In this document: positions 8,142 through 21,081 of the stretch, one piece after another
How positions within the stretch are numbered: the first letter of the stretch is position 1
Layout of the letters: each line of letters opens with the position of its first letter
IMG/VR virus record: IMGVR_UViG_3300001749_000005
Location: 20,744-44,788 of that record
DNA: 24,045 nt
DNA from: a virus
Strand: one strand, 5' to 3'
Program-made: the position numbers and the translations under genes
Notes under the pieces: generated by a model
Database searches by the model: none
What the model saw: only the letters and a program-made list of their open reading frames with translations
Told to the model about the DNA's origin: nothing

Positions 8142-8153
8142 CTCCTACACGTT
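8142..8153 (-). promoter_or_regulatory. shared leader element (copy 2)
   Basis: AACGTGTAGGAG on the minus strand, 7 nt before ATG 8134. A TTTTTAAG box (8176-8183) is centred about 26 nt upstream of the first base of the element, so the mRNA probably begins with the element itself. Confidence 0.68.
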
Positions 8154-8193
8154 ATTATTCAATAAGGGGTTAATGCTTAAAAAGTTTATTGTT

Positions 8194-8526
8194 TCAAACA
8201 GTGATAGTCCATTCGCGGTTCGGCCATGTTCCCGTTACCCTCTGCACTGTGCCAGCTAACTCGCTAATTTTGGATACTACTACGCTTAAAAGCCAGCCCA
8301 ACCCTGCTTCTTTTGACACGCCGGGAATTTTTTCCATAAACATCAATCCGCCAATTAGCAAGGTTATCAAGTCGCCTGTTCCAATCCCCCAAATCCATGT
8401 TCCCGCAGAGTCTTTAAGAGTTACAGTGTATAACAAGCCTATTTTGCTTAACGGTACATCTATGAAAATAGATGCTACTGTCCCGCTTAATCCACCAATG
8501 ATTATATGTTCAAATTGTTTCTCCAT
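8194..8526 (-). CDS. small membrane protein
   Basis: About 110 aa with two or three hydrophobic stretches (IIIGGLSGTVASIFI; WGIGTGDLITLLIGGLMFM; LGWLLSVVVSKI) and a polar C-terminus. ATG 8526 is preferred over GTG 8535 because GGTG sits at 8537-8534, giving a normal gap. It follows the 148-aa membrane protein after a few bases and shares its transcript. No family recognised; probably a virion membrane or host-membrane protein. Confidence 0.66.
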   Translation of the reverse strand: MEKQFEHIIIGGLSGTVASIFIDVPLSKIGLLYTVTLKDSAGTWIWGIGTGDLITLLIGGLMFMEKIPGVSKEAGLGWLLSVVVSKISELAGTVQRVTGTWPNREWTITV

Positions 8527-8535
8527 TTTTTTCAC

Positions 8536-8982
8536 CTATATTTTGTAGGAATTTTGAATTAAGGATGGCCCCCAAATTAGGATTACAACACCGAAGATTA
8601 GTGTTCCCCAAATATACCACGGTACAGCTTGTATTATTGAGTAGAGCGAGATGACGATTGCTACAAGTCCTATAAGCGTTAGAATTGTTGGTAGCCAAAC
8701 GATTATGGTTGCAGCAGTTAAACTGATGGGGCGAGGCGTTAAGCCTAACTCTCCTCTAGAAACCATTGTGAATTGAAAGTTGATTGTTTGAGTGCCGACT
8801 TGTATCCAGTTGATTTGGAGTTCAGGGTATTCATTTTTGAATCTGTTTAAAACAAAAGCGGCTACATCTTCAGGGTCACGTATGGTTGTGGTTTGAACGT
8901 GGACTTCATAGGTTTTACCTACTTGTAAAATGCCTGTTTTAGGCTGTGCCTGCCCAGCTACACGTAAACCATACTGAACCAT
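8536..8982 (-). CDS. two-helix membrane protein with an extramembrane beta domain
   Basis: The 148-aa protein has an N-terminal ~75-residue soluble region with alternating strands (GKTYEVHVQTTTIRD; QTINFQFTMVSRG) and a helix (VAAFVLNRFKNEYPEL). Two C-terminal hydrophobic helices follow, from about residue 88 to 140 (AATIIVWLPTILTLIGLVAI and WYIWGTLIFGVVILIWG). There is no signal peptide. It carries its own copy of the shared leader and a TATA box. Function unknown; it fits the block's membrane/envelope theme. Confidence 0.68.
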   Translation of the reverse strand: MVQYGLRVAGQAQPKTGILQVGKTYEVHVQTTTIRDPEDVAAFVLNRFKNEYPELQINWIQVGTQTINFQFTMVSRGELGLTPRPISLTAATIIVWLPTILTLIGLVAIVISLYSIIQAVPWYIWGTLIFGVVILIWGPSLIQNSYKI

Positions 8983-8989
8983 CTTTCGT

Positions 8990-9001
8990 CTCCTACACGT
9001 T
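8990..9001 (-). promoter_or_regulatory. shared leader element (copy 3)
   Basis: AACGTGTAGGAG on the minus strand, 7 nt before ATG 8982. The CTTTAATAC box at 9021-9029 is centred about 24 nt upstream of the element. Confidence 0.68.
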
Positions 9002-9040
9002 ATTGTTAATTGTTGTTTATGTATTAAAGAATTTCTGTTA

Positions 9041-9811
9041 TTATCTCCAAGGACGCGCCTCTATCACTTTCCCAACAATGTAGAGACCGCCTAAACCAGC
9101 TACAGCTACAATAGCTACCCAAAGCAGGAAGTCGCGTGTTCTTGCCCCTTTCGGTACGCCCAAGCATATTTCAACATGTTCGTTATAAGCGTCAATTATT
9201 GATTGAGGCACATCTTCAGGCGTAGCATACTCTGATTTAAGTCCAAAGCCCGCGCCGCATTTAGGACATACATACCAATATAGTGTCGACTGGTAAGTGT
9301 AGTATTCTGACCAATTATCAAAAGTAGTCGGGTCTGCTGTTGTTCCACCAGTGTAGCTGGGAGGCTGAAGCACATATTCGGAAAGAGTCATAAAACTTTG
9401 GCTTAACATGTAAACGACTACCACAGCAATTATGGCAGCCGCTATTATTGTTATAGCATAAATTAAAGCTATTACAATCGCGGGAGCTATCAGTCGTTCT
9501 CCAAATCTAGCTTCTAACGTTGGTTGTTCTGATGCAATCCATAAGCGAGGTTTATAAATGTCTTGGGTGACTCCTTGAATGGCTAGGATACCGTCACAGA
9601 AACCGTCTACCTGTTGAGTGTAAAGGTCATTGGTTATTCTAGTTTCTAAAGTGTTTAAGTCTGGAGCAGTTGCAGCGGGAGTTGTTGTGTGAACACTGTA
9701 GCTTTCATAATAAATAGCCATTTTACCCGTTAAGGGACTTCGCATTTGCAGAGTACGTCCAGTGAATCTTACACGAGAAGAACGCAAAAGTTTTCCTAGT
9801 TGTTTCTGCAT
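9041..9811 (-). CDS. two-helix membrane protein with a C2HC zinc-finger loop
   Basis: The 256-aa protein has a basic N-terminus, a long hydrophobic hairpin at about 107-136 (IAPAIVIALIYAITIIAAAI), a polar loop, and a C-terminal helix at about 228-248 (LLWVAIVAVAGLGGLYIVG). Within the loop Cys182, Cys185, His212 and Cys216 form a C-x2-C-x26-H-x3-C zinc-finger pattern. A zinc finger between two membrane segments is unusual. It might bind a virion partner or nucleic acid; this is inference. The ATG follows directly after its copy of the leader (TAGGAGATG). Confidence 0.72.
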   Translation of the reverse strand: MQKQLGKLLRSSRVRFTGRTLQMRSPLTGKMAIYYESYSVHTTTPAATAPDLNTLETRITNDLYTQQVDGFCDGILAIQGVTQDIYKPRLWIASEQPTLEARFGERLIAPAIVIALIYAITIIAAAIIAVVVVYMLSQSFMTLSEYVLQPPSYTGGTTADPTTFDNWSEYYTYQSTLYWYVCPKCGAGFGLKSEYATPEDVPQSIIDAYNEHVEICLGVPKGARTRDFLLWVAIVAVAGLGGLYIVGKVIEARPWR

Positions 9812-9826
9812 CTCCTACACACCGTT
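9812..9826 (-). promoter_or_regulatory. shared leader element, variant (copy 4)
   Basis: AACGGTGTGTAGGAG on the minus strand: the element with a 3-nt insertion, touching ATG 9811 with no spacer. TATATA/CTTAAAAAA sequences lie 14-21 nt upstream, inside the end of the previous gene, so this gene may have an internal promoter. Confidence 0.5.
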
Positions 9827-9828
9827 TA

Positions 9829-10935
9829 TTATCTCTTTTTTAAGTATATAACGATTAAGGCAACAGATGTTAAGGCTACACCTGTAGCCAAGATAATTTG
9901 CCAAGGAAAGCCGCCGCCTTTACTGACCCAGTGAACTTCCACTTCCGTATCAGTTTGTAAATCAAAAGTTATGTTTAAGTCTGTAGTGGTTGAGCCGTCA
10001 GGCTTTACCCAATAAGCAAAGGTTCGGTCTCCAGGAGCTTCAGCGATTAAAGCGTATGTTCCTTTAGTCAGTTTAGCACTAAAGGGAACGTCAAGGTATT
10101 GTTCTATTCCTGCATACACTATTTTTACTGCTTTTTCACCTGGAAAATTGTTCAGGTTTTCGTCAAACGATTTAATTGTAAGCAGTGCAGGTTCAGCTAC
10201 GCCGTATATTGCTGTAATAGTTTTTGTTCCTGGCTCTATAGTTTCCGTTCTTGTAGGGCTTGTATTTCCATCAAGCCAATTTTGGAAGTCTGTAGCGTCA
10301 ATAGAAACTGTAACTGTTGTGCCTACGGGAAGGCTTGGTGTTTGAGAAGGAGTTGTGAAAGGGTATATCTGTTCAAGGTAAGTCATGCTACCGGTTTTTC
10401 CAGCAGGGTTACTTGCAACAACTAAGACGCCTTCAGCTACTTCATAGCTGAAATGTAGAGTTTCAACCCAGAAACTTCCAGCTTGTCCAGAATTTTCCCA
10501 ACAGTCAATTCTGAACTGTTTTATTTTAGTCCAGTCGAATCCTGCTTCCTCATCCCAACCTTGGCCTGGACCCAAACGGTATTCTTTTGTTTCCCAAACG
10601 CTTGTTGGACTCGTAATTGTTTGTCTGGCCGCTGACCTGCCATCTACATCATAAAGCACGACGGTGACGTTACCATTATGTGCTTCATCTAAAGCATGGT
10701 AAAAAAACAGTTTCGCATTTGTTTGTGTACCATCAAACTCTTTCCCGTTTTTCAACGTGAAAATAGAGCCTTCATAATAGATATAGCCCACAGCATATGT
10801 CCTGATACTGCCTTCTCCCGCAACTTTAACATAAGGGTCAAATTCAACCTCACCCGCAACTGGACTCCAATCTCCCTCTTCCGGATGTAACGTTTCACTC
10901 CAAGCTTCAGGGTCCGAGGGATAAGTAACTAGCAT
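9829..10935 (-). CDS. tail-anchored multi-domain surface protein (jelly-roll plus Ig/PEGA-like domains)
   Basis: The 368-aa protein begins with a ~165-residue region resembling a galactose-binding-like jelly roll (VKVAGEGSIRTYAVG near 36; FDWTKIKQFRIDCWENSG near 133; FWVETLHFSYE). Two smaller beta modules follow: one with TTVTVSIDATDFQNWLDG and TKTITAIYG, and a PEGA-like one (FSAKLTKGTYALIAEAPG, then FAYWVKPDG). Last comes a Gly-rich hinge and a single C-terminal helix (IILATGVALTSVALIVIYL, KKR end). No signal peptide is visible. It is probably a glycan-binding or spike-type virion protein, inferred from domain types. Confidence 0.72.
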   Translation of the reverse strand: MLVTYPSDPEAWSETLHPEEGDWSPVAGEVEFDPYVKVAGEGSIRTYAVGYIYYEGSIFTLKNGKEFDGTQTNAKLFFYHALDEAHNGNVTVVLYDVDGRSAARQTITSPTSVWETKEYRLGPGQGWDEEAGFDWTKIKQFRIDCWENSGQAGSFWVETLHFSYEVAEGVLVVASNPAGKTGSMTYLEQIYPFTTPSQTPSLPVGTTVTVSIDATDFQNWLDGNTSPTRTETIEPGTKTITAIYGVAEPALLTIKSFDENLNNFPGEKAVKIVYAGIEQYLDVPFSAKLTKGTYALIAEAPGDRTFAYWVKPDGSTTTDLNITFDLQTDTEVEVHWVSKGGGFPWQIILATGVALTSVALIVIYLKKR

Positions 10936-10946
10936 TAGGTTTAGTT

Positions 10947-10958
10947 CTCCTACACATT
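10947..10958 (-). promoter_or_regulatory. shared leader element, AATG variant (copy 5)
   Basis: AATGTGTAGGAG on the minus strand, 11 nt before ATG 10935. GCTTTTATC (10980-10988) is centred about 26 nt upstream, again placing the likely RNA start at the element. Confidence 0.62.
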
Positions 10959-10992
10959 AGTTATAGATTAGGCTAGAAAGATAAAAGCTTTT

Positions 10993-11175
10993 TTAGGTCT
11001 TCACTTTTAATCCTTGCGCTTCCAAAGTGACTTCAGCAGGAGCAGCTGTTTCTGAGTGGGCGATAATAGCAATTATTTTTCCCGTGTAGTTGTTTGTGTC
11101 AATTGTTATAGCAGTGTCTTTTCCTAGTTCAGTGTCAAGTATTTCCTCATTTAAAGTTACCATTATAGTCTTCAT
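10993..11175 (-). CDS. small beta-strand protein of unknown function
   Basis: A 60-aa protein, MKTIMVTLNEEILDT..., with strands TAITIDT, GKIIAIIAHS and EVTLEAQGLKV, and no Cys or membrane helix. It could be a minor structural protein. A strong GGAGGTG lies about 9 nt upstream of the ATG. It sits directly downstream of the glycosidase gene and is probably co-transcribed with it. Confidence 0.62.
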   Translation of the reverse strand: MKTIMVTLNEEILDTELGKDTAITIDTNNYTGKIIAIIAHSETAAPAEVTLEAQGLKVKT

Positions 11176-11190
11176 CTTTTTTTCACCTCC

Positions 11191-12156
11191 TTATCCTCGA
11201 CTTAACAAGAAAAACATTCCGCCTACGATTATTAATGGAAGTATGAAAGAGGGTGGCGGTGGTGGAGGTGGAGTTTGCGGAGTCCAGAAATTCTGAGCAA
11301 AATAGTCTTGTGCAAACTGGTAGTAACAATGGTAGTCGTCATAAGTGCCTATACGATGTAAGATAATGTTAGCATTGTATTTTTTGGCATATTCGAGATA
11401 CTTCATTACAAACGCCATGTTGCCAGGATACATGAGATAACCTCCAGAAATACACATGTTGCTGTAGTTATAGCTACACCCAAGTTCGGTGACGCAATAA
11501 GGCACGTTTAACTGTCTAGTTTGATACGCGCTTCCTCCGCTTCCTTCAAAATGGTTTCGTAACCAGCCAGTGACTCCTTTGCTTTCTGCAAAACTGTCTA
11601 AATCAGTAGGTAAAGGTGAGGTTGTAACTCCATCCCAATCCGCACCATAGTAGTGTCTTCCAATCATATAATTGTGTTGGGGGTCATCTAAGGCTTTAAT
11701 AGTCATGTAACCTCCCCATTGGCTGTAGTTGAATAGTATAGGTAATTTTATGCCAGTGCTTCGAAGAGCATCGAGTAAGTCTTGGAACCAACTGTAACCT
11801 GTAGACGCGTTTGGTGGCGCCCACTCGTTTATAGCTTCAATAACTACATTTGTTCTGTTGTTAAAGCGACTAGCTTGTTGAACCCAAAAGTCTATCCATT
11901 CTTGTTTGTGGCCAGTGAGATAATCTGATGGAGGATAATTATGCATTAGGTCTAAATAGACAGTTATACCAAGTTCATCACCGCGGGAAACTATATAGTC
12001 GATTTCCTCTTGAGTGTAATGTAACCCGTTTCTCCAAGGTTGAGCAGCGTAAGGTCGTATTGCATTCCAGCCAGCATCATGCAACCTAACTAATTGCTCT
12101 TCTAGTTCTGTGATACCCCCGTAGAAGTATCCACCCCAACCGAAAACCATCATCAT
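11191..12156 (-). CDS. GH5-like glycoside hydrolase with Pro-rich stalk and C-terminal membrane anchor
   Basis: The 321-aa protein reads as a (beta/alpha)8 glycosidase of clan GH-A. INEW at 109-112 carries the acid/base Glu111, HYY at 168-170 matches the conserved HxY of GH5-type enzymes, and VTELG at 222-226 carries the probable nucleophile Glu224. A PxP stalk (296-302, seven Pro in a row) leads to a hydrophobic helix (FILPLIIVGGMFFLL) and the end. There is no signal peptide: the catalytic barrel starts at residue 5. It would hydrolyse a polysaccharide, perhaps a host surface glycan on entry or exit; substrate unknown. It starts within ATGATGATG after AGGT; a TATA-like TTAATATATAG is about 20 nt upstream. 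Confidence 0.82.
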   Translation of the reverse strand: MMMVFGWGGYFYGGITELEEQLVRLHDAGWNAIRPYAAQPWRNGLHYTQEEIDYIVSRGDELGITVYLDLMHNYPPSDYLTGHKQEWIDFWVQQASRFNNRTNVVIEAINEWAPPNASTGYSWFQDLLDALRSTGIKLPILFNYSQWGGYMTIKALDDPQHNYMIGRHYYGADWDGVTTSPLPTDLDSFAESKGVTGWLRNHFEGSGGSAYQTRQLNVPYCVTELGCSYNYSNMCISGGYLMYPGNMAFVMKYLEYAKKYNANIILHRIGTYDDYHCYYQFAQDYFAQNFWTPQTPPPPPPPSFILPLIIVGGMFFLLSRG

Positions 12157-12260
12157 TACCTGTGCTATATATTAAAAGAACTTTAATTTATCATTTAGGG
12201 TCTATCAGAAAGGAAAGCTTTTTTAAATAAGACAATAGTAGAATTAATTAGTGAAGTAAT

Positions 12261-13085
12261 ATGGTCATATTTGAAGATGGTTTTGAAAGTGGTAATTTTG
12301 TCGCTTGGACTAACGTGCAAGGATATGGAGGAGGGGTTGCATCAGTCAGTATGGAGCAACCGCGCTCAGGTATTTATAGTGCAAAGTTTGAAGTTGCGCC
12401 AACGATTGAATGGGCTGGAGCTTTATGTTCACATAATGTAACTGGACATATTGAGCTTTACGCGAGAGCGTACTTCCTAATTGGTCAAGGCTTGCCTTTA
12501 CCAGCTGGTTGGTTTGATATTTTAACATTTGAAGAGGCAGGAGAGCCTTACGAGTATATTGCTAGTGTTGGAATCTCAAAAAGAACGGGTGTTGATGCTT
12601 GGCGACTTAGAGCTAGAAATGGAACAGGATGGGTTAGTGTTGATGGTAGCCCAGTACCAAACACCCTCCAATATATCTGTGTTGAACTCCACGTAACAGT
12701 TGATGCAGTAAACGGAGCTGTTCAATTATTCGTTAACGGAGTTTTAGATGCTCAAATCTTAGGCATTGACACTACAGCGTTTGTTTTAGGACGTGCACGA
12801 TTTGGAATACACAAACCGTCAGAAGCCTCTGAAACAGGTGCGGGAAATCTCAATCTAATCGTGTATGTTGACAATTGTGTTGTAGCAGAAGAATATATTG
12901 GTCCTGAGGAGCCTCCGCCACCGCCATGTGAGTCTTACTTAACTCAAGCAGAATGTGAAGCAGCACTATGTTACTGGTATGATGGTACATGTCATTCAGA
13001 GCCAGCGCCGCCGCCTCCTCCGCCACCAGATATACTTCCGCTGTTAGTGTTATGTGGAATAGTGTTGCTGTTAACTCAGATTTAG
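12261..13085 (+). CDS. lectin-like (ConA-type jelly roll) protein with Cys module, Pro-rich stalk and C-terminal anchor
   Basis: The 274-aa protein starts with FEDGFESGNFVAWT, typical of concanavalin-A-like lectin/glucanase domains, and holds strands to about residue 210. A Pro-rich linker leads to a four-Cys module (Cys223, 232, 237, 244; CYWYDGTC). A second stalk (seven Pro in a row) and a terminal helix (ILPLLVLCGIVLLL) follow. The stalk-plus-anchor tail closely resembles that of the GH5-like enzyme, although this gene is on the opposite strand. No signal peptide. It probably binds a sugar on the virion or cell surface (inference). A TTTAAATA box is about 35 nt upstream. Confidence 0.76.
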   Translation: MVIFEDGFESGNFVAWTNVQGYGGGVASVSMEQPRSGIYSAKFEVAPTIEWAGALCSHNVTGHIELYARAYFLIGQGLPLPAGWFDILTFEEAGEPYEYIASVGISKRTGVDAWRLRARNGTGWVSVDGSPVPNTLQYICVELHVTVDAVNGAVQLFVNGVLDAQILGIDTTAFVLGRARFGIHKPSEASETGAGNLNLIVYVDNCVVAEEYIGPEEPPPPPCESYLTQAECEAALCYWYDGTCHSEPAPPPPPPPDILPLLVLCGIVLLLTQI

Positions 13086-13225
13086 CTTCTTACGTTATTC
13101 GCAGCTTCGTATAACCTAGGAAGATTTCGGACGAAAAGTTCTAAACTGTAAACTATGGTGTCAACTATTACTTTTGCGTTGTTTCCTTCAGCTGAGATTT
13201 CAAATTGGTATTTAGGTATTTTCAC
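13082..13225 (-). CDS. short hypothetical protein, tail-to-tail with the lectin gene
   Basis: A 47-aa frame: GTG start at 13225, KIPKYQFEISAEGNNAKVIV, then an amphipathic helix (TIVYSLELFVRNLPRLYEAA). It begins inside the last codons of the upstream HTH gene and ends so that its stop overlaps the lectin gene's stop on the other strand. This exact tail-to-tail packing and the sensible composition support a real gene. The ribosome-binding site is weak, so the start could be different. Function unknown. Confidence 0.5.
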   Translation of the reverse strand: MKIPKYQFEISAEGNNAKVIVDTIVYSLELFVRNLPRLYEAANNVRS

Positions 13226-13454
13226 TGTTAGTTTCGTGTGTTTCCCTCTTATGCCATTTATGAATGCGAGAGCCGTATTTACCGTTTAACATTCGGTTTT
13301 CAAGTAAGCCATGTTTCTTTGCTTGCACAAGATACCGCACCATTGTTCTAACTGTTAATCGTGCTTGCTTCGCTAAATAGTGGGTTGTCTGCCATTCACT
13401 TGTCATGTTAGCTATTACATGGAAGGCACGGTCACGAGAAGTCGGCGCAGTCAT
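13212..13454 (-). CDS. winged-helix/HTH protein
   Basis: An 80-aa basic protein with a helix-turn-helix: EWQTTHYLAKQARLTVRTMVRYL (residues 20-42) followed by a wing-like KKHGLLENRMLNGKYGSR. It resembles MarR/ArsR-type small winged helices. GGAG lies in the end of the preceding gene about 11 nt before the ATG. It belongs to a chain of five overlapping small genes that look regulatory. Target unknown. Confidence 0.72.
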   Translation of the reverse strand: MTAPTSRDRAFHVIANMTSEWQTTHYLAKQARLTVRTMVRYLVQAKKHGLLENRMLNGKYGSRIHKWHKRETHETNSENT

Positions 13455-13457
13455 AGT

Positions 13458-13631
13458 TTACTTCTCCTTAACAATAATTATTCCTTCTTCAATCAAACGA
13501 TTCAACGCAAACTCCAAATCTTTAAGCTGGATTATTTCAACCTCATCTCTAAAGTTGAAGAGAGAACCTCTAGAAGTAGGAAACCTATCCTTAATTATTC
13601 TCACTAAGTCTTTCGCGTCTTTAGAACTCAA
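13458..13631 (-). CDS. small winged-helix-like protein
   Basis: A 57-aa protein read from TTG 13631, which lies within the end of the upstream zinc-knuckle gene and is preceded by GGAGAAGGGG. It shows SSKDAKDLVRIIKDRF, FNFRDEV and LEFALNRLIEEGIIIVKEK; the last part looks like the third helix and wing of a winged-helix domain. It ends 3 nt before the next ATG. Small size and a TTG start make it easy to overlook. A DNA-binding role is inferred. Confidence 0.62.
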   Translation of the reverse strand: MSSKDAKDLVRIIKDRFPTSRGSLFNFRDEVEIIQLKDLEFALNRLIEEGIIIVKEK

Positions 13632-13842
13632 TTTTCCCCTTCTCCTTCAACTCAGCTAGTTTGGCTTTAGCTCTTCGTTTTTGTAGGGCTTTCTTGCAAG
13701 CTGTGCAGTTGTCTAGACTGTCATCATTTCCCTGCTCTAATTCACCGAGAAACATCCATTTCCCACAAAGAGACCGCCCATTAATAATATAATGTGCCTT
13801 TCTCCAGTTGGATGCAAAACCCCATCCTTCTTTTTCACTCAT
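13621..13842 (-). CDS. zinc-knuckle protein, paralogue of 22757-22972
   Basis: The 73-aa protein has His17, Cys26, Cys46 and Cys49 (KAHYI, LCGKW, CTACKK) and a basic C-terminal helix. The protein at 22757-22972 has His16, Cys26, Cys46 and Cys49 with the same flanking pattern (KAHAS, LCGRD, CKKC), so both probably form one zinc site. Such small zinc proteins are common in tailed and archaeal viruses, often of unknown role. Its ATG overlaps the TGA of the upstream HTH gene. Confidence 0.72.
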   Translation of the reverse strand: MSEKEGWGFASNWRKAHYIINGRSLCGKWMFLGELEQGNDDSLDNCTACKKALQKRRAKAKLAELKEKGKIEF

Positions 13843-14093
13843 TCAATCTTTGCCTCTTTAAAGGTAAATTCATCAAAATTCATAACCCAGCGTTTTCTTT
13901 CACTAATAACTATTGGAGCACCTTTCATTCTTTTTGATATATTTTGTATTCGTTTCAATCTTCTCCACACAATTGTTCTACCGCTCGTTTCAGGCTTATT
14001 TAATTGTAAAACTTCAGCCATCTCTTTTGTTGTCGCACCATCAAACGTCTTAGCCAATAGATGTTTAAGTATTCCTTTGTCTAATTCAGTCAA
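13839..14093 (-). CDS. winged-helix regulator, N-terminus unresolved
   Basis: The 84-aa core (TTG 14093) has a clear helix-turn-helix: GILKHLLAKTFDGATTKEMAEVLQL, then WRRLKRIQNISKRM and a wing (APIVISERKRWVM). The frame stays open about 150 nt upstream and encodes a coiled-coil-like stretch (KQLDKRVTRLERELKKVLDI) joined to it without a stop, yet no ATG, GTG or TTG exists there. So the true protein is likely longer, started at a rare codon or hidden by an indel near 14205 (ATGTAACG). Palindromes around the TATA box suggest autoregulation. It heads the 13082-14093 regulatory chain. Confidence 0.7.
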   Translation of the reverse strand: MTELDKGILKHLLAKTFDGATTKEMAEVLQLNKPETSGRTIVWRRLKRIQNISKRMKGAPIVISERKRWVMNFDEFTFKEAKIE

Positions 14094-14255
14094 ATCTTGC
14101 CAGTTAAATGGGTCAGTGACCGGTGAAAGTTCAAGAATGTCAAGAACTTTTTTTAATTCACGTTCTAAACGTGTTACTCGTTTGTCTAGTTGTTTCGTGC
14201 TATATATCGTTACATCACCTTTGTAACCTTTAGAACGGTTTATGTTACTATTAAG

Positions 14256-14331
14256 TATTTATATGTTGCTAACATTTTTTTGTGGAAGAAAAACGAGAGA
14301 GAAAGGAGTTATTCAATGTTACAATAACATT
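14256..14331 (-). promoter_or_regulatory. promoter with palindromic operator candidates for the 13839 regulator
   Basis: ATATAAATA (minus strand, 14256-14264) is a good TATA box. ATGTT-GCT-AACAT (14263-14275) overlaps it, and AATGTTA-CAA-TAACATT (14315-14331) lies upstream; another half-site is near 14242. Two palindromes sharing ATGTT/AACAT arms at a HTH gene's promoter suggest a dimeric repressor's operators. Confidence 0.55.
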
Positions 14332-14406
14332 TGTGATTGCAACCATGTCTGCTTAGCCGTTTCTAATATTGTTTAGGGGTACTAATTGGTTTAAAGTTTT
14401 GTTGTT

Positions 14407-14652: not shown

Positions 14653-14654
14653 TT

Positions 14655-15047
14655 TTAATGTCCTGCTTGAGCGCTTAGGTTCCAGTCGTGGTTAGGCATA
14701 TAGCCTATCAGAGGATAGTCGGTTAATGATGAGCCTTCTGGGAGGGTCTGTGTTTTTGATGCTAATTCCTCGCTTGTGTCTCTATCAATTATCTTATAGA
14801 ATATGTCGCCAGCACCTTGCCCATCGTTTCTGACAGCAATACTTACACGAATTACGTCGCCCTCCTCTGCAATCGGAATTTCCCCTGCCAAAATGTCATA
14901 CGCCATGTTTTTTGTGGAGTTTTCAATGATTAGCTGTGTCATTGACGCTACGGCTCCCAAAAGGTCTACCATAAATATTTTTTCGTCGTCCACTACACCT
15001 ACAGGTAAGCTGTATCTTTGGGTTAAACGTTGCACATACAACACCAA
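14655..15047 (-). CDS. secreted/surface-type beta-sandwich protein lacking its anchor
   Basis: A 130-aa protein. Its second half resembles a CARDB-like beta sandwich of archaeal surface proteins (VIRVSIAVRNDGQGAGDIFY, then KIIDRDTSEELASKTQTL, ending HDWNLSAQAGH). Related surface proteins normally continue a few strands into a C-terminal membrane helix; here the frame stops and the helix appears in the next small ORF. The start is probably TTG 15047: a CTTTAAAC box lies about 25 nt upstream, so the mRNA may be leaderless. Other starts (GTG, TTG) follow within four codons. Confidence 0.66.
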   Translation of the reverse strand: MVLYVQRLTQRYSLPVGVVDDEKIFMVDLLGAVASMTQLIIENSTKNMAYDILAGEIPIAEEGDVIRVSIAVRNDGQGAGDIFYKIIDRDTSEELASKTQTLPEGSSLTDYPLIGYMPNHDWNLSAQAGH

Positions 15048-15063
15048 ATAAGTAAGTATCTGT

Positions 15064-15378
15064 TTATTGTTTAAAGGTTTTTGTTTTTTTCGGAGGTGGT
15101 GGGGGTGGTTGGTTGTTTGTTTGTAGTTCTATGAAGATTTTTATTCCTTTGGCGAGGTCTATTAGTTCTTGGAAGTCTAGTTGTTTTGCTTTTTCTATTA
15201 TGGCTTCTAATTCTTTGATTTTAGGTTGGATTGTTGGGTGTTTAAGGATTGCGTCTGCTGTAGTTATGGCTGTGTCTCGTGACAAGCGGGGTAGGAAGTA
15301 TTTGAAGAATATCCATGTGCCAAGTAGGAAAGAGAGTAAGCCTGAGACGAAGTTTACAAGGCAGGTAAGTAGTTCCAT
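15064..15378 (-). CDS. membrane-anchored helical protein with poly-Pro end
   Basis: The 104-aa protein has an N-terminal membrane helix (CLVNFVSGLLSFLLGTWIFF, residues 6-25). A cytoplasmic amphipathic helical region follows (IKELEAIIEKAKQLDFQEL), then a run of six Pro and a Lys-rich end. Its ATG follows the stop of the 46-aa gene after 1 nt. It could be a membrane scaffold for virion assembly; no family is recognised. Confidence 0.7.
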   Translation of the reverse strand: MELLTCLVNFVSGLLSFLLGTWIFFKYFLPRLSRDTAITTADAILKHPTIQPKIKELEAIIEKAKQLDFQELIDLAKGIKIFIELQTNNQPPPPPPKKTKTFKQ

Positions 15379-15379
15379 G

Positions 15380-15520
15380 TTATACGCCCAACATTTTTTT
15401 AGCTAATTCTAACTGTAGTTTATGTTTTTTTTCTTTTTCTTCTCGCCGTCGCGTTTCGGCTCTCTCAACACGTCCCTCAGGCGTTAAACCTGTCATTTTT
15501 TCTCTGCTTTTCTTACCCAT
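15380..15520 (-). CDS. small highly charged helical protein
   Basis: A 46-aa frame: MGKKSREKMTGLTPEGR, then an Arg/Glu/Lys-rich helix ending KLQLELAKKMLGV. AAGGA lies about 10 nt before the ATG, and the stop is immediately followed by the next gene's ATG. Packing within the operon is the main support. It may bind nucleic acid or a partner protein; no function can be named. Confidence 0.6.
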   Translation of the reverse strand: MGKKSREKMTGLTPEGRVERAETRRREEKEKKHKLQLELAKKMLGV

Positions 15521-15572
15521 TTCTTTGTTTCCTTTTCATAATTCTTGGAAATAAATAACTTGCACAGCTCAC

Positions 15573-15812
15573 TTAGACATTTCCGTTTATTAGTTCTTCT
15601 ATGTAGTCTAGTAATGTGTTGAGTTGTTTTTTTATGTATTTTCGTCCTTTAGAGCTTGTTAGAAGTAGCCATGCTTGTTTGTATTCTTGTAGGTTTTGGT
15701 TGAGGTTGGGCCAGATTTGGATGGTTACGGGTCCGACTGTTACTGTGGCGTTGCATAGGGTTTCGTAGAGTAGCCAGTCGGCGGGTTCGTTGGTTTTGAT
15801 GGCTTTAAGCAG
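15573..15812 (-). CDS. ORF without canonical start, +1 frame to the acidic coiled-coil gene
   Basis: About 79 aa of sensible protein: LLKAIKTNEPADWLLYETL, a beta hairpin (TVTVGPVTIQIW), then helices to ...LDYIEELINGNV. The frame is open back to about 15870 but contains no ATG, GTG or TTG; the only near-starts are CTG at 15812 and 15851. It overlaps the end of the 67-aa gene in the +1 frame, whose last codons are GCT TAA. So it is either translated from CTG, or is the C-terminal domain of the upstream protein reached by +1 frameshifting or hidden by an indel. The coordinates use CTG 15812 as a placeholder. Confidence 0.5.
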   Translation of the reverse strand: MLKAIKTNEPADWLLYETLCNATVTVGPVTIQIWPNLNQNLQEYKQAWLLLTSSKGRKYIKKQLNTLLDYIEELINGNV

Positions 15813-16008
15813 TCGGTTCTTCGCTTGTTGTGGATTCGGTTTCTGAGTCAGTTTCTTCCGCCTCTTCTTGAGTTTCTACAGGTATTGGCGGGCCTATCGA
15901 CGCTTCGGTTGTTTCTGGTTCTTTTAAGACGCATCTGGCTTTAACGTCGGCTAGTTCAATTTTCAACTCGGCTACTTCTTTCCTTAATTTTTCAATTTCT
16001 TCACTCAT
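15805..16008 (-). CDS. coiled-coil plus acidic linker protein
   Basis: A 67-aa protein. Residues 1-25 form a coiled coil (EEIEKLRKEVAELKIELADV); the rest is a disordered Glu/Thr/Ser-rich linker ending EEPTA. A linker ending in nothing is odd, and the frame beyond the stop (+1) encodes a folded domain. The ATG overlaps the TGA of the 108-aa gene. The coiled coil may drive oligomerisation of a structural or scaffold protein. Confidence 0.68.
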   Translation of the reverse strand: MSEEIEKLRKEVAELKIELADVKARCVLKEPETTEASIGPPIPVETQEEAEETDSETESTTSEEPTA

Positions 16009-16331
16009 TGATGTACCTCCTTTTCTCCTTTTTCTATGTCGCCTAAGCGGTCTATTATTACATAGAAGCGGTATCTTCCTGATTGTTTAAGCTCTATGTA
16101 AGGTTGTCCTTTCTGTTCGACAACTCGTTGGTCTCCAATGTTCAGGCTAACTATCATGCCTTCGTAAGCATTAACGTCGCCTACTTCTACAATTCCATCG
16201 TTTACGAGAACTTCAGTTATGTCGGGTAAGACAATTTTTGTTTTAGGTGTTAAACGGAATCTAAGTTTTTTCGTTAGTTCTTTTTTGGCTTCTTCACCTT
16301 TCTTTTCAATATACTCTTCAAGTTTGCTCAT
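16005..16331 (-). CDS. 108-aa unknown protein with an N-terminal charged helix
   Basis: An N-terminal Lys/Glu helix (KLEEYIEKKGEEAKKELTKK) precedes a compact beta domain (KTKIVLPDITEVLV, VNAYEGMIVSLNIGDQRVV, GRYRFYVIIDRLG). It is soluble, without Cys. Its ATG overlaps the stop of the 456-aa gene (TAATG), and its own stop overlaps the next ATG, so all three are translationally coupled. Unknown family. Confidence 0.7.
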   Translation of the reverse strand: MSKLEEYIEKKGEEAKKELTKKLRFRLTPKTKIVLPDITEVLVNDGIVEVGDVNAYEGMIVSLNIGDQRVVEQKGQPYIELKQSGRYRFYVIIDRLGDIEKGEKEVHQ

Positions 16332-17701
16332 TATTTTTCCTCCTTCTTCGTAGGTTTAGGTATTTTCTGTTTCTTGGGTTTGATTTTACCTTGTTTTACT
16401 AAGGAGCCTTTCATTCCTCTTATTTGTTGTCCGCTTAGTTTTGTTGCTTTTGTGATTAGGTTTACAGGTGTTCCTCCTAGGAGCATTTGCCGGGCTGTTT
16501 CTTTGCGTTGTTCAAGTGTTGGGGTTTCACCTATCAAATGTTTATCAGACGGCATTGTTCCTGGTTCAGCTGGAGTTTGTTTTGTTGGTTGAGGCACTAC
16601 CTGTAGTGGTTGTGTGGGTTGTGTAGACGTTATTTCAGGTGGAAGGTGTTGTTCTGGAAGTGTGGCGAGTTCTTCAGGTGTTACTTCATGTATTTCTGCG
16701 CCTGGGGGTATTGTGGTTGGAGGTGGAGGTTTAGCTGCACCTTTGTGTTGTTCTACGTAGCCCCATATCATTTTAGCTATTTTGCCTACGGGCACTTGAA
16801 CGTTTTCTATATATTTACCAAGTTTTTCAGGGGTTAATGGTTCTCCTTTGTCTTTTATGCCGAGTCGTTTGTGCATGAAGGCTCTGATTGCTGGGTCTTT
16901 TTCGGATAGTTGGCTCATTCGTGTGATTTGGTCAAATTCTGTAGGAGCGTTTCGGATTTCGGTTATTTGTCGCGTAAGGTCTTGATGTTTCCAATTGGAT
17001 TCTCTTTGCATCGAGTCCATTTGTGCTTGGTGTAGCTCTTTACGCATGTCTTTCATTTCTTCTCGCCAGAGGTCTTCAGCTTTTTTAGCTTCGTCTGGTG
17101 TTCCAAAAATTCTCATGGTCATGGCGTATTCTTTGAGTTCGTCTAGTCTCTCTCGGATGCCTGATTTTGGTTGTTTCGCTGGTGTTTGCAACCGTTTTAC
17201 CTGTGCGTCTTTAAGTTCTTTGAGTATCGCTAGAATTGCTGGGTCGGTTTCCTTTTTTTCTAAACTGTCTAGTGCTTTGAGTTCTGCGACTGTTTCCATT
17301 ATGTCTCTTTTTTCTTTTGGTTGAGGGTAAGGGTATTGTTGTGGAGGTTGCCCCCAGTAAGGAGGGTAGGGAGATTGTTGTTTGGGTTCGTCGCCGAGGC
17401 TGATGCCTAATGTTTTCAGGTAGACTTTGGTTTCTACAGCGTCAGCTATTACGCTTTTAAGTCTGTCTCCTATATTGGTTCCTCCGGGAGGACGGGTTTC
17501 AGGTAGAACGGCTTCTGTCAGTTTTCTCCTTTTGGCTGGTGCTCTAGCTGAAGCAATCTGTTTAAGCTCCTCGAAAACGTCTAGGGGCACTTTGTTGAGT
17601 AATTCATGTAGGATTTCTTTTTCCTCTTTGCCGCTTGATGCAGAAGCTAGTTTGAGTTTGTCGATGTCACCTTTATAAATTCTCATTGGTCCTGTACTCA
17701 T
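16331..17701 (-). CDS. large helical/Pro-rich protein with a C-terminal HTH-like segment
   Basis: The 456-aa protein is the longest in its operon. Seen: a Lys/Glu-rich N-terminus, a Pro/Tyr/Gln-rich linker (residues ~110-130), long charged helices (ELHQAQMDSMQRESNWKHQD), and a second Pro/Thr linker. The C-terminal region (ETARQMLLGGTPVNLITKAT then LSGQQIRGMKGSLVKQ) looks like a helix-turn-helix, followed by a Lys tail. It may be a scaffold, a virion-associated DNA-binding protein or a partitioning factor; I cannot choose. The ATG has no clear ribosome-binding site and sits downstream of the repeat-bearing promoter region. Confidence 0.7.
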   Translation of the reverse strand: MSTGPMRIYKGDIDKLKLASASSGKEEKEILHELLNKVPLDVFEELKQIASARAPAKRRKLTEAVLPETRPPGGTNIGDRLKSVIADAVETKVYLKTLGISLGDEPKQQSPYPPYWGQPPQQYPYPQPKEKRDIMETVAELKALDSLEKKETDPAILAILKELKDAQVKRLQTPAKQPKSGIRERLDELKEYAMTMRIFGTPDEAKKAEDLWREEMKDMRKELHQAQMDSMQRESNWKHQDLTRQITEIRNAPTEFDQITRMSQLSEKDPAIRAFMHKRLGIKDKGEPLTPEKLGKYIENVQVPVGKIAKMIWGYVEQHKGAAKPPPPTTIPPGAEIHEVTPEELATLPEQHLPPEITSTQPTQPLQVVPQPTKQTPAEPGTMPSDKHLIGETPTLEQRKETARQMLLGGTPVNLITKATKLSGQQIRGMKGSLVKQGKIKPKKQKIPKPTKKEEK

Positions 17702-17719
17702 TTTAATCGTCTAGTTTGT

Positions 17720-17808
17720 TGTTCGTGCATGTACATAAGCTTATCTGTTCGCATGTATGTGGATTTTTAGTTTTATCTGTTCAGTGTAAACGTTCTAGTG
17801 TGCGAACA
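17720..17808. promoter_or_regulatory. divergent promoter region with repeated TGTTCG motifs
   Basis: Between the divergent genes at 17701 and 17948 lie TGTTCGTGCATGTACAT (from 17720), TGTTCGCATGTATG (from 17746) and the inverted TGCGAACA (17801-17808). The last is the exact complement of TGTTCGCA at 17746-17753. This is the layout expected of operators controlling one or both directions. No single strong TATA box stands out. Confidence 0.45.
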
Positions 17809-17947
17809 ATCATGTGCACGTCTATAACAAGCTTAAGGAGTAGGTGTTTGCTATATTTGGGAAATAAAAGGGGTGTTAGTTCCATCTTAAAGAATGTCGG
17901 AAAGGGAAAAGACATAAATCTCTTGATAGTCTCTTCTTAACAGGTAA

Positions 17948-18223
17948 GTGATAGGTTTGGAGAAGCAGAAAGTCTTGATTGTTTCACCTGTTTGTCCAAG
18001 TTGTGAAGTGGTGAAGAAGCATTTAGCTAAGCAGGGAACGCTTGACAAGTATATTATTGTGGATGCTTCAACTCCTGAAGGTTTAGATTTTGCTAGAAGG
18101 TTAGGCATACGAGGTGTTCCTCAATGCGCGATTATCGAGGGGGAGGGAGAAAAGAAGACTGTGAGGATTTGCAGTGATGAGGAGTGGAAAAGGATGATGA
18201 AGGGTGATGAGCGAGAAACCTAA
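17948..18223 (+). CDS. thioredoxin/glutaredoxin-like protein
   Basis: The 91-aa protein has the redox fold in outline: strand VLIVS, CPSC at residues 16-19 at the start of a helix, YIIVDAS, then GIRGVPQCAII with the cis-Pro motif (VP) typical of thioredoxin-like proteins, and a final charged helix. It should catalyse dithiol/disulfide exchange in the cytoplasm, perhaps serving the many Cys-rich small proteins nearby; the partner is inferred. The start is GTG 17948, with TTG seven codons or fewer downstream as an alternative. Confidence 0.78.
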   Translation: MIGLEKQKVLIVSPVCPSCEVVKKHLAKQGTLDKYIIVDASTPEGLDFARRLGIRGVPQCAIIEGEGEKKTVRICSDEEWKRMMKGDERET

Positions 18224-18470
18224 AGAAGAAAAACCTGAAGAAGTTGCAGAGCCAGAGCTGAAAGAGTTTATAGTTTATGTTAAAGCAGTTCCTGCATTTC
18301 CCAACGCTTTTACACCTGATATTTTAGACAGGGTTATAGCTGCTAATGAAGAGGAAGCTAAAGATTACATGGTGGGTAGGTTAGCTGAGCATGATTATAT
18401 AGTGGAGAAATGGTATGCTGTTGCAGAAACTACGATTTTAGGGGCGACGGCGCGGGCTTTGAGTGGTTAA
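18207..18470 (+). CDS. 88-aa protein of unknown function
   Basis: A Lys/Glu-rich N-terminal tail (about 20 residues) precedes a compact alpha/beta domain: FIVYVKAVPAFPNAF, ILDRVIAANEEEAKDYMV, then YIVEKWYAVAETTIL. This resembles small beta-alpha-beta 'ANEEEA' domains in which a strand leads into a helix that signals residue input; no function is known to me. It overlaps the redox gene by 17 nt. ATG 18207 is used; GTG 18204 is also in frame. Confidence 0.68.
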   Translation: MSEKPKEEKPEEVAEPELKEFIVYVKAVPAFPNAFTPDILDRVIAANEEEAKDYMVGRLAEHDYIVEKWYAVAETTILGATARALSG

Positions 18471-18485
18471 TGGAAGCAGTTAAAC

Positions 18486-18848
18486 ATGAAAATAACGAAT
18501 TTAGACACGGATTTATTGTTGTACTTGATTACTGAAAGAGGAGCTACAACAACAGAATTGGCGAAGTTGATGTTTGCTCCTATAAACGATTATGAACTGA
18601 GGAAACACGACAGCAAAATTAGGTATAGATTGGAAAGGATGAGAAAGAAAGAACTTTTGCATAAGAACGGGGTCAAATACACGGTTAATGAAGAACGAGT
18701 TTTTCTGACGCAAGCATCCATGTTTCTAGAGGACATTGAAGTTGCGTTGCCAATGGGAAAAATGCTTGTAGTGTATCCTAAAGACGATGAAATTATGATG
18801 AGAACGTTGCGCACTGAGTCTATGTTGCCGCCTAGAAAAAGTGATTGA
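18486..18848 (+). CDS. winged-helix transcriptional regulator
   Basis: The 120-aa protein begins with a winged-helix domain: DTDLLLYLITERGATTTELAKLM (helices 1-2), KIRYRLERMRKKELLHK (recognition helix) and GVKYTVNEERVFL (wing). The remaining ~45 residues contain a strand-like segment (KMLVVYPKDDE) that may mediate dimerisation. It ends the 17948-18848 operon and may act on the repeat-bearing promoter just upstream of that operon, which is inference. Confidence 0.75.
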   Translation: MKITNLDTDLLLYLITERGATTTELAKLMFAPINDYELRKHDSKIRYRLERMRKKELLHKNGVKYTVNEERVFLTQASMFLEDIEVALPMGKMLVVYPKDDEIMMRTLRTESMLPPRKSD

Positions 18849-18863
18849 GTTTTATGAAAAGCC

Positions 18864-18873
18864 CTTTAATAAG
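18864..18873 (+). promoter_or_regulatory. TATA box of the 18916 operon
   Basis: CTTTAATAAG is centred about 27 nt before the shared leader element at 18895-18906, the standard archaeal TATA-to-start distance. Confidence 0.6.
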
Positions 18874-18894
18874 GGTTCAGCCTACAAGAGTATT

Positions 18895-18906
18895 AACGTG
18901 TAGGAG
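18895..18906 (+). promoter_or_regulatory. shared leader element (copy 6, plus strand)
   Basis: AACGTGTAGGAG, 9 nt before the ATG at 18916. Identical to the minus-strand copies at 8142-8153 and 8990-9001. Confidence 0.7.
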
Positions 18907-18915
18907 TAGAAAACA

Positions 18916-19152
18916 ATGGGCATAGAAGGCCTTAAAACAAAGAAAGGCGCTTGGGTAAAACCAGGGCGCACTGGCGGACCTTTATTGCCAGGAAGCTATA
19001 GAGGATATATTTATGTGAGAGCACCTCCAAAGCCGTACCCGACTACAGCTCAACAGAAAGCAATTGGTGCGAAAGGTAGATGTGTCCGAGAGAAGTGTAC
19101 GGGCAAGAAAGGCAGCGATTTCATTTCGTGCAGGGTAAGCTGCACTGGTTAA
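18916..19152 (+). CDS. 78-aa basic Cys protein, paralogue of 19510-19746
   Basis: A 78-aa basic protein sharing with 19510-19746 the layout KGAW[VI]K, YP-T-x-QQK, G-[RL]-x-[VI]-R-E-x-C-x-GKKG and C-R. Here KGAWVKPGR is followed by a Gly/Pro-rich insert, then YPTTAQQKAIG, CVREKCTGKKGSDFISCR and CTG. Four Cys may bind a metal or form disulfides; basic charge suggests nucleic-acid binding or a virion core protein, both inferred. It has its own leader element and TATA box, so it is probably well expressed. Confidence 0.72.
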   Translation: MGIEGLKTKKGAWVKPGRTGGPLLPGSYRGYIYVRAPPKPYPTTAQQKAIGAKGRCVREKCTGKKGSDFISCRVSCTG

Positions 19153-19244
19153 GAACCGCCAAACCCTCTTTTTCTTTTTTCATCCACAAATTTTTATAGG
19201 TCTATAGCTAAGTATTGTTTGGAAGAGTAGAGTTGGCTTTAACT

Positions 19245-19520
19245 ATGGCTCAGTTTGAGAGTTCTTTGAAGGCAGATAAGAAGCTAAGAGAAGCATGTTC
19301 AGTGTTTGGGTTAGACGATAAGGAATGCAAGAAGCTAGAGGGATATGTCGGGGAAATCTGTGGAGTTTTAGGTAAGGGCGCAAAAACAAAGAGGAAGAAA
19401 CAGTTGAGTAAATGGCAATTGTGCATTAAGGAACGAAGGTCAGGGAAGCCTTTTGACCCAGTTGCTATTAAGCAACTTGCGAAAGAATATAAAGCGGGGA
19501 CGTGTCCTAGTGGCGCATAA
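19245..19520 (+). CDS. basic Cys-containing helical protein
   Basis: About 91 aa from ATG 19245 (TTG 19215 and 19233 are in frame upstream). Five or six Cys fall in helices (LREACSVFGLDDKECKKLEG, VGEICGVLG, WQLCIKERRSGKPF, GTCPSG) with many Lys. A TTTTTATAGG box lies at about 19189, so transcription may begin near 19217. It stands between the two paralogous 78-aa proteins and likely works with them. No family recognised. Confidence 0.66.
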   Translation: MAQFESSLKADKKLREACSVFGLDDKECKKLEGYVGEICGVLGKGAKTKRKKQLSKWQLCIKERRSGKPFDPVAIKQLAKEYKAGTCPSGA

Positions 19521-19746
19521 AGGCGCGTGGATTAAGGTTCGCCGTCAAATGAGCAAGTACCCGGAGACTCCTCAACAGAAGAAAGTGAAGATAGGCGGCT
19601 TATTGATTCGAGAGGTTTGCAAAGGCAAAAAAGGCATGGAGTTTATGGAGTGCAGAACTGAAGTTTTACAGTGCGCTTTTGACGATGAGAAGTGTAAGAA
19701 AGCTCTTTTAGAAGTGAAGAAGAAACTTCAGGCGGAAGCGGATTAG
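19510..19746 (+). CDS. 78-aa basic Cys protein, paralogue of 18916-19152
   Basis: The frame extends upstream to TTG 19453, but GTG 19510 gives a 78-aa protein of exactly the same length as its paralogue and begins just before KGAWIKVRR, where that family starts to align. GGGGA lies about 10 nt upstream. Motifs: YPETPQQKKVKIG, REVCKGKKGMEFMECR, then CAFDDEKCKK and a Lys/Glu helix. It overlaps the preceding gene by 11 nt. Confidence 0.68.
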   Translation: MAHKGAWIKVRRQMSKYPETPQQKKVKIGGLLIREVCKGKKGMEFMECRTEVLQCAFDDEKCKKALLEVKKKLQAEAD

Positions 19747-19747
19747 A

Positions 19748-19936
19748 ATGGTTGATGTTCGTAAAGTTTGTGAGGGCGCAACAATTATTTTCACGTTTGG
19801 CGGTGGCTTGGCTGCTTATGAGGGTTATGACCGGGAAGGGTTGATTTTGACGTTTTTGGCGGCGGGGTCTGCTCTTATGAGTTTCTTCGCGGTTGGAGAA
19901 TCGTTGTTGGGCTTGCCAAGCTTAAGGAAGGGGTGA
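19748..19936 (+). CDS. two-helix small membrane protein
   Basis: The 62-aa protein has two hydrophobic helices (ATIIFTFGGGLAAYEGY and LILTFLAAGSALMSFFAVG) separated by a short polar turn with DREG. Its gene starts 1 nt after the stop of the previous one. It could be a holin-like or virion-membrane protein; no family is recognised. Confidence 0.66.
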   Translation: MVDVRKVCEGATIIFTFGGGLAAYEGYDREGLILTFLAAGSALMSFFAVGESLLGLPSLRKG

Positions 19937-19937
19937 C

Positions 19938-20249
19938 ATGGAAGATAAAGAGAGAAGGATAGACCCAGCGTTCATAGAAAAAATAAGGCGTAAGAGAGAG
20001 GAACAGTTAGCAAAACGGACGGATTATGAAAGAGCTATTGATGAATTAAAAGCGCATGCAGGGTATTGTGAAACAAAAGAAAGAATTTACGCGTTTTTGG
20101 AGTCGGCAAACGTAAAAAATAAAGAAGAGATACTTGAGAGGTTAGTACAGGAGAAGAAAGTATCTCTCGAACCGAAAGTTTGTATGTTTCCTTATATCCT
20201 ACATCTTGTAGCAACAAAAGAAGAGGAAGAAAAGACAAAACATGAATGA
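19938..20249 (+). CDS. charged helical protein of unknown function
   Basis: A 103-aa protein with charged helices (FIEKIRRKREEQLAKR; YERAIDELKAHAGY; KERIYAFLES; KEEILERLVQEKKV) and a short hydrophobic segment. GGGGTGA just before the ATG, one base after the previous stop, is a strong coupled start. It could be a helical winged-helix or adaptor protein; unassigned. Confidence 0.66.
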   Translation: MEDKERRIDPAFIEKIRRKREEQLAKRTDYERAIDELKAHAGYCETKERIYAFLESANVKNKEEILERLVQEKKVSLEPKVCMFPYILHLVATKEEEEKTKHE

Positions 20250-20367
20250 TAAAGCCTTGAAAAAGTTCGTTGAATATGAACGGTTAGACTCTAAACTTTA
20301 CAGTCGAACCAGAAGGATTTGGCATAAGTTTTTGTTCCGAGAAGAACATATGTTTACTGAGGATTAG
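20242..20367 (+). CDS. 41-aa basic protein
   Basis: ATG 20242 lies inside the end of the previous gene. The product MNDKALKKFVEYERLDSKL... is basic and aromatic and ends FREEHMFTED. It lies 2 nt before the next ATG. Operon packing and composition support it; function unknown. Confidence 0.52.
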   Translation: MNDKALKKFVEYERLDSKLYSRTRRIWHKFLFREEHMFTED

Positions 20368-20369
20368 TT

Positions 20370-20537
20370 ATGATTTCGGATAAGACGTTAAGACAAGTGG
20401 AAGAGGCAGGGTTGTTGTGGTGTCCTCACTGTTATAATGCGGGTAAGCTTATGACTTTCGCAACGTTCCATGATTTGCAACGTCATGTGAGGAAGGGATG
20501 TAGGACTTTCGCTAAAGGTGATTCTTGGCAAAGCTAG
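20370..20537 (+). CDS. small zinc-finger protein
   Basis: The 55-aa protein has WCPHC (Cys18, Cys21), then FHDLQRH (His34, His39) and Cys44: a C-x2-C-x17-H-x4-C finger. It probably binds DNA or RNA, as single-finger proteins of archaeal viruses often do (family knowledge, binding inferred). It is the last gene of the 18916-20537 chain; its stop overlaps the stop of the convergent membrane gene at 20534. Confidence 0.7.
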   Translation: MISDKTLRQVEEAGLLWCPHCYNAGKLMTFATFHDLQRHVRKGCRTFAKGDSWQS

Positions 20538-20851
20538 GGTACCTGTCCAAGCATGGTTACAAGTTTCGTATAAAATATATAGAGTGCTATTTCCAAAGGT
20601 GTGTCTGGCACAATAGCGATGGTGACTATGCTTCTGAGAGTAGTTATGAAGAGTCTTAACAAGTCGTCTGGTGAGGCTGTCTGAATAAATTCTGTTGTTG
20701 TTCCCTCTGGAAAGAAAGGGGCAATTTTAGAGTCAGCCAACATTTGCAAAAGTGATTCTCGTATCACGCTAATAATTGTCATAAAATATTGGTTTTGTCC
20801 AGTGTTGTAGCCGAGGAGGCCTCCGGCTAAACTGCCTAAAATCCAATTCAT
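20534..20851 (-). CDS. membrane-associated protein of unknown function
   Basis: The 105-aa protein starts with a glycine-rich hydrophobic helix (ILGSLAGGLLGYNTG) and has further amphipathic or hydrophobic segments (FMTIISVIRESLLQML; LLRLFITTLRSIVTIAIVP; LEIALYIFYTKLVTML). It has the shared leader and a TATA box, like the membrane-protein genes of the 7703-10935 block, so it probably belongs to the same expression class. Confidence 0.68.
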   Translation of the reverse strand: MNWILGSLAGGLLGYNTGQNQYFMTIISVIRESLLQMLADSKIAPFFPEGTTTEFIQTASPDDLLRLFITTLRSIVTIAIVPDTPLEIALYIFYTKLVTMLGQVP

Positions 20852-20861
20852 TTCAGTTTAT

Positions 20862-20874
20862 CTCCTACTACGTT
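20862..20874 (-). promoter_or_regulatory. shared leader element, variant (copy 7)
   Basis: AACGTAGTAGGAG on the minus strand, 10 nt before ATG 20851; the TATA box is centred about 22 nt upstream. Confidence 0.6.
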
Positions 20875-20892
20875 AGCAGATTAGTTGAGAAA

Positions 20893-20900
20893 CCTTATAA
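20893..20900. promoter_or_regulatory. palindromic TATA box serving two directions
   Basis: CTTATAAG is a perfect palindrome. It is at a proper distance from the leader element of the minus-strand gene (20874) and about 30-35 nt before the tRNA-like gene on the plus strand, so one box may drive both. Confidence 0.55.
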
Positions 20901-20931
20901 GAGTTTGTATTGCCTCACTAATACCTAAAGT

Positions 20932-21030
20932 GGACGGAGTAACCCGTTTAGCCATCAAGATGAGGCAGCAGGGAGTCTGCTGACGCGGGAAGGCTCAAGT
21001 CGGGGGTTCAAATCCCCCGTCTGTCCGCCA
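20932..21030 (+). tRNA. tRNA-like gene with encoded CCA and non-canonical core
   Basis: GGACGGA (20932-20938) pairs with TCTGTCC (21020-21026; one G-T pair), followed by G and an encoded CCA. A perfect T arm (GGGGG-TTCAAAT-CCCCC, 21002-21018) is present, extendable by a C-G pair. The middle is abnormal: CCCG (20943-20946) pairs with CGGG (20986-20989), enclosing a GCC/GGC hairpin and a CAGCA/TGCTG hairpin with loop GGGAGTC, which has no U33. I cannot assign an anticodon. With CCA it is 99 nt, near the size of long-arm (Ser, Leu, Sec) tRNAs. It may be an unusual tRNA, one with an intron, or a tRNA mimic. Confidence 0.6.
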
Positions 21031-21040
21031 TACGCAAAAC

Positions 21041-21048
21041 TAATATGA
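21041..21048 (+). promoter_or_regulatory. TATA box of the 21084 gene
   Basis: TAATATGA is centred about 26 nt before the leader element at 21070. Confidence 0.5.
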
Positions 21049-21069
21049 CTAGAGAAAGCTAATAATATT

Positions 21070-21081
21070 GTCGTGTAGGAG
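21070..21081 (+). promoter_or_regulatory. shared leader element (copy 8, plus strand)
   Basis: TGTCGTGTAGGAG region with the CGTGTAGGAG core at 21072-21081, 2 nt before the ATG at 21084. Confidence 0.62.

Follow-up and report, generated by a model that had tools for sequence, protein, structure and literature searches.

The question raised by this locus is why eight genes on both strands of one viral genome should be preceded by copies of the same short sequence, and whether that sequence is a Shine-Dalgarno (SD) site or something larger. The window is the whole stretch of 24,045 nucleotides that was analysed, positions 20744-44788 of an IMG/VR record of 44.8 kb, whose right-hand 24 kb it forms; the remaining 20.7 kb were scanned too, and coordinates marked "genome" refer to the full record. 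The gene list comes from greedy ORF selection and is an uncurated annotation. The window has a GC content of 41%, and a tRNA scan and an Rfam scan of it returned zero tRNAs and zero families. Its closest database links are rudivirus glycosyltransferases, with lipothrixviruses also hit (best match 33% identity, E 6e-37). These links and the position of the TATA boxes, about 25-30 nt ahead of the starts, make it likely that the record is an archaeal virus whose host would belong to the Thermoproteota or a similar group. The glycosyltransferase nearest the rudivirus enzymes is encoded at window 3222-4577 (-) within a block of several glycosyltransferases.

All eight places at which the preliminary description had reported the leader exist. 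With their TATA-like sequences they are, in window coordinates:

6957-6968 (-), leader AACGTGTAGGAG, exact, 9 nt to the ATG of the 209-aa gene 6318-6947
TATA box of the 6947 site, ambiguous: at -35, or a weak CTAAACTG near -26
8142-8153 (-), leader AACGTGTAGGAG, exact, 7 nt to the ATG of the 143-aa gene 7703-8134
8176-8183 (-), TATA-like TTTTTAAG, starting 30 nt ahead of the element at 8142-8153
8990-9001 (-), leader AACGTGTAGGAG, exact, 7 nt to the ATG of the 148-aa membrane-protein gene 8536-8982
9021-9028 (-), TATA-like TTTAATAC, starting 27 nt ahead of the element at 8990-9001
9812-9823 (-), leader GGTGTGTAGGAG, three mismatches, 0 nt to the ATG of the 256-aa gene 9041-9811
9845-9852 (-), TATA-like GTTATATA, 29 nt ahead of the element at 9812-9823, inside the end of gene 9829-10935
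10947-10958 (-), leader AATGTGTAGGAG, one mismatch, 11 nt to the ATG of the 368-aa gene 9829-10935
10978-10985 (-), TATA-like TTTATCTT, starting 27 nt ahead of the element at 10947-10958
18866-18873 (+), TATA-like TTAATAAG, starting 29 nt ahead of the element at 18895-18906
18895-18906 (+), leader AACGTGTAGGAG, exact, 9 nt to the ATG of the 78-aa gene 18916-19152
20862-20873 (-), variant leader (A)ACGTAGTAGGAG, 10 nt to the ATG of the 105-aa gene 20534-20851
20894-20901 (-), TATA-like CTTATAAG, starting 28 nt ahead of the element at 20862-20873
21040-21047 (+), TATA-like CTAATATG, starting 30 nt ahead of the element at 21070-21081
21070-21081 (+), leader GTCGTGTAGGAG, two mismatches, 2 nt to the ATG of the 63-aa gene 21084-21275

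The copies differ in how near-identical they are: four are exact and one has a single mismatch; the others carry two or three mismatches or, as in the leader of the 20851 gene (AACGTAGTAGGAG), match only with one inserted base. What is conserved is a core of 9 nt, GTGTAGGAG; its preferred form has 12 nt, AACGTGTAGGAG, in which the AAC ahead of the core is a preference only (A in 6/11, A in 7/11 and C in 5/11 sites). Scanning the other 20.7 kb added three motif genes (genome 1099-, 6906- and 16615-), which brings the gene starts carrying the element to 11, eight in the window and three outside, on both strands. Nine of them have a copy of the core and two have variants, GTAGTAGGAG at the 20851 gene and TGCGTAGGAG at genome 1099. 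A further perfect core (GACGTGTAGGAG), at genome 3818-3829 (-), has no convincing ORF behind it and possibly marks a small RNA or a decayed gene.

This recurrence exceeds chance. The 44.8 kb contain 10 copies of the core against 0.28 expected; none of 200 first-order Markov genomes has more than 2, and the 12-mer was seen 4 times and never in the simulations. Outside the TATA box and the leader the flanks are not common between sites and the genes are unrelated. The sites are therefore not recent duplicates, and the element recurs before non-homologous genes of one genome, as a virus-specific shared promoter element would.

GGAG is a normal SD, used by other genes of the virus, so the simplest account would be an ordinary SD multiplied by chance or recent duplication. 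The context of GGAG speaks against this, as do copy number, flanks and gene content. GGAG lies near the start in 25 of the 75 listed genes, and 11 of these carry the motif: in a script listing, TAGGAG is preceded by GTG, GTA or GCG in these 11, and none of the 14 other GGAG genes has both. An upstream gap of its own or a divergent promoter precedes 10/11 motif genes vs 3/15 other GGAG genes, of which the remaining 12/15 are operon-internal (Fisher p = 0.001; slightly wider spacing was allowed in this count, hence 15 genes and not 14, and the p-values here are descriptive because several tests were devised after the motif had been seen). The duplex energy with the canonical 16S tail AUCACCUCCU is equal with or without the first six nucleotides of the element. 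Conservation thus extends past the bases that pair with 16S rRNA, since the GTGT beyond them is kept. The earlier view that the element is more than an SD is borne out, as GTGTA is retained while adding no pairing energy and is missing from the other GGAG-led genes. We regard an ordinary SD with chance or duplication as the least probable explanation of all, close to negligible.

What the element is tied to is seen from its distances. TATA-like octamers, when anchored on the element, peak at -30 to -26 with a best offset of -29 (p = 0.003 against rotated sequences), and the signal is weaker when anchored on the ATG (p = 0.04). The distance from element to ATG varies from 0 to 11 nt (sd 3.6). 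The coupling is therefore to the TATA box and not to the start codon, at a fixed distance with one site ambiguous. Of the two sites said to have irregular spacing, 6947 is indeed ambiguous, while 9811 has a good GTTATATA at -29 and so fits better than was first described. The boxes themselves are weak; the region is loosely AT-rich and no octamer is common to the sites. Archaeal TATA boxes centre near -27, archaeal transcription start sites (TSSs) are purines following a pyrimidine, the median 5' UTR is 12 nt long, and output can be tuned through an initiator located in the initially transcribed region (PMC5316973). The element-anchored peak together with this general TATA position would place the transcript start within the AAC, giving 5' leaders of about 12-23 nt. 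This agrees with the proposal that the transcripts begin at the element.

The element marks a subset of the promoters of the virus, as had been suggested. At other genes (e.g., 15047- and 19215+) the TATA box is placed for leaderless starts, and at least two leadered TATA promoters, genome 9521- and 11108-, lack the element, which is therefore not needed for leadered expression.

Taken together, we favor, with a probability of roughly 60%, a compound initiator-plus-SD leader at the 5' end of one transcript class, which would form one promoter class of an archaeal virus. Genes unrelated to one another would then probably have one start signal in common that joins transcription start and ribosome binding. 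Host TBP and TFB would bind the TATA box about 25 nt upstream of the start, RNA polymerase would initiate at the AAC, and each mRNA would open with a leader of about 12-23 nt containing the common sequence, with GGAG as the ribosome-binding site. GTGTA would owe its conservation to a role as an initiator-type promoter element within the initially transcribed bases, one that probably sets the timing or strength of these promoters jointly, so that the class may be co-regulated. It could be read through a preference of the host polymerase or by a virus-coded DNA-binding protein.

The same position would also suit a signal read in the RNA, in which translation would favor viral mRNAs through their identical 5' end, recognised by a factor of the virus or the host or through special 16S pairing. 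The conserved stretch takes in and adjoins the SD and is predicted to open the mRNA; with an extended 16S tail ending ...CCUCCUACAC, all nine bases of the core would pair. However, the spacing to the start codon is variable, AACGTGT adds nothing to pairing with the canonical archaeal 16S tail, and GTGTA is missing at the operon-internal SDs of this virus. The exact GATCACCTCCTACAC was found in 0/295 genomes of one archaeal phylum, although the host may lie elsewhere. Recognition at the DNA level is favored over a translation tag because the element is coupled to the TATA box, and we consider the RNA-level signal unlikely. Still less weight goes to the version in which the common 5' end AACGUGUAGGAG is a leader tag that singles out the mRNAs of this virus for translation, either through a translation factor of virus or host or through a GUG-UAG start-stop pair joined to the SD.

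A viral transcription or translation factor reading the element is possible. Binding over the TSS is common among archaeal viral regulators (PMC5569661), and a virus-coded repressor or activator might bind GTGTAGGAG over the start site as an operator. The candidates are small winged-helix-like proteins and an AbrB/MazE-fold protein encoded in the window at 7037-7243 (+) (Pfam E 5e-8; PDB SpoVT). This small DNA-binding protein is encoded divergently from the 6947 motif gene and is a candidate regulator. However, the dyad symmetry of the element is limited to ACGT, the invariance of GGAG is already accounted for by the SD, and nothing links any protein to the element. This proposal overlaps with the initiator-plus-SD leader and differs from it only in who reads the element; as a separate explanation we hold it to be doubtful.

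The leader had also been suggested to be a copy of one favored by the host. Viruses can have strong promoters in common with host genes (PMC11065993). The search results give this idea no support: a search of 84,980 genomes for TATA, leader and ATG together gave 22 hits, with no archaeal lineage enriched; 21 of the hits are bacterial, and most lie within coding frames. The sole archaeal genome among them contains 7 copies of GTGTAGGAG vs 21 of its reversed control. On these genomes a copied host leader appears very improbable.

Among viral contigs, TATA plus leader gave 8 hits, none with a repeated leader, and leader plus ATG gave at least 118. The 80 leader-plus-ATG stretches that were fetched had at most two core copies each, and these matches are therefore attributed to chance. 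Relatives of the virus were sought with its proteins. The 209-, 143-, 271-, 238- and 658-aa proteins returned only glycosyltransferase/epimerase homologues from viral contigs, and the 143-, 209-, 456- and 932-aa proteins no relatives other than such homologues from phage records. Relatives of the 143-aa protein were not found in genomes, and a virus protein compared with 247 genomes of one archaeal phylum found nothing in what was an uninformative search. The NAD-dependent epimerase of this virus (genome 17083-19059, -) is split by an intein-like insertion, which is unusual in a small archaeal virus; PF14890 scores below cut-off there, with the two epimerase halves on either side.

What is known of promoter classes in archaeal viruses comes mostly from Sulfolobales. 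A start-site word of 9-12 nt coupling initiation to ribosome binding would offer a handle, from sequence only, on gene classes in orphan viruses, and would open the role of the archaeal initially transcribed region to testing. By analogy, the element may work like known virus-specific promoter elements, the new features being its leader position and the inclusion of the SD. The GTC element of the rudiviruses SIRV1/SIRV2 (Kessler et al., 2004, cited in PMC5569661) is likewise a short virus-specific cis element downstream of TATA; as summarised in PMC5569661, it is present in most promoters of one archaeal virus and was proposed as a virus-specific regulatory element. By that same summary GTC has three bases, whereas the element described here has 9-12 bases reaching the SD and lies at the predicted start. 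The early (anti-defence) genes of SIRV2 and other archaeal viruses also have one genome-specific sequence per class ahead of non-homologous genes, and this regulatory sequence varies from virus to virus (PMC11065993). The early consensus, however, surrounds BRE/TATA and its TATA is near-identical (PMC11065993), whereas here no near-identical BRE/TATA core lies within the common sequence: the TATA is loose, and what is conserved is the leader of a putative expression class. The archaeal initiator resembles the element in its position in the first transcribed bases and in its capacity to regulate output, but is general and not required (PMC5316973), while here a 9-nt word is fused to the SD in a subset of genes.

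The most frequent upstream 9-mers of eight archaeal viruses were compared, and most of them are TATA/A-rich or start-codon words. STSV1 (NC_006268) alone among them has a recurring word that includes the ribosome-binding site, inside a 75-nt block alike throughout. In several of its genes the TATA, the leader and the ribosome-binding site recur with constant spacing (TAGGTGAAAT), much as is seen here. However, the STSV1 blocks are alike over about 75 nt including TATA and upstream sequence, as if by block duplication, and in the present virus only the leader core is.

The motif genes had been proposed to form a membrane/virion class. A transmembrane segment is predicted in 6/11 of them vs 16/62 others, which is a trend only (Fisher p = 0.077), and none of the motif-class products compared with Pfam, PHROGs and PDB sequences could be identified, as a virion protein or otherwise. 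The label is therefore unproven. Single-sequence AlphaFold models of two motif-class proteins had pLDDT values of 36 and 58, too poor to search with.

The element can also correct gene starts. For genome 6551-6928 (-), the leader indicates that the gene probably starts at 6883 and encodes 110 aa (genome 6551-6883), the ATG further upstream being in overlap with the promoter. Another leader-like word, TTGGGGTGAAAG, has three occurrences, one of them (genome 1-60) directly ahead of the first gene, and may mark another promoter class.

Elsewhere in the window, the product of 11191-12156 (-) belongs to the GH5 cellulase family (Pfam E 3e-17) and has both a C-terminal membrane anchor and a proline-rich linker, and the product of 12261-13085 (+) has a C-terminal anchor of the same kind. 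The products of 21084-21275, 4577-4735 and 3222-4577 have an N-terminal peptide in common (EESVFKHR, MSVFKHRFNV and EESVLKHNFNV), which is perhaps a common targeting or assembly tag.
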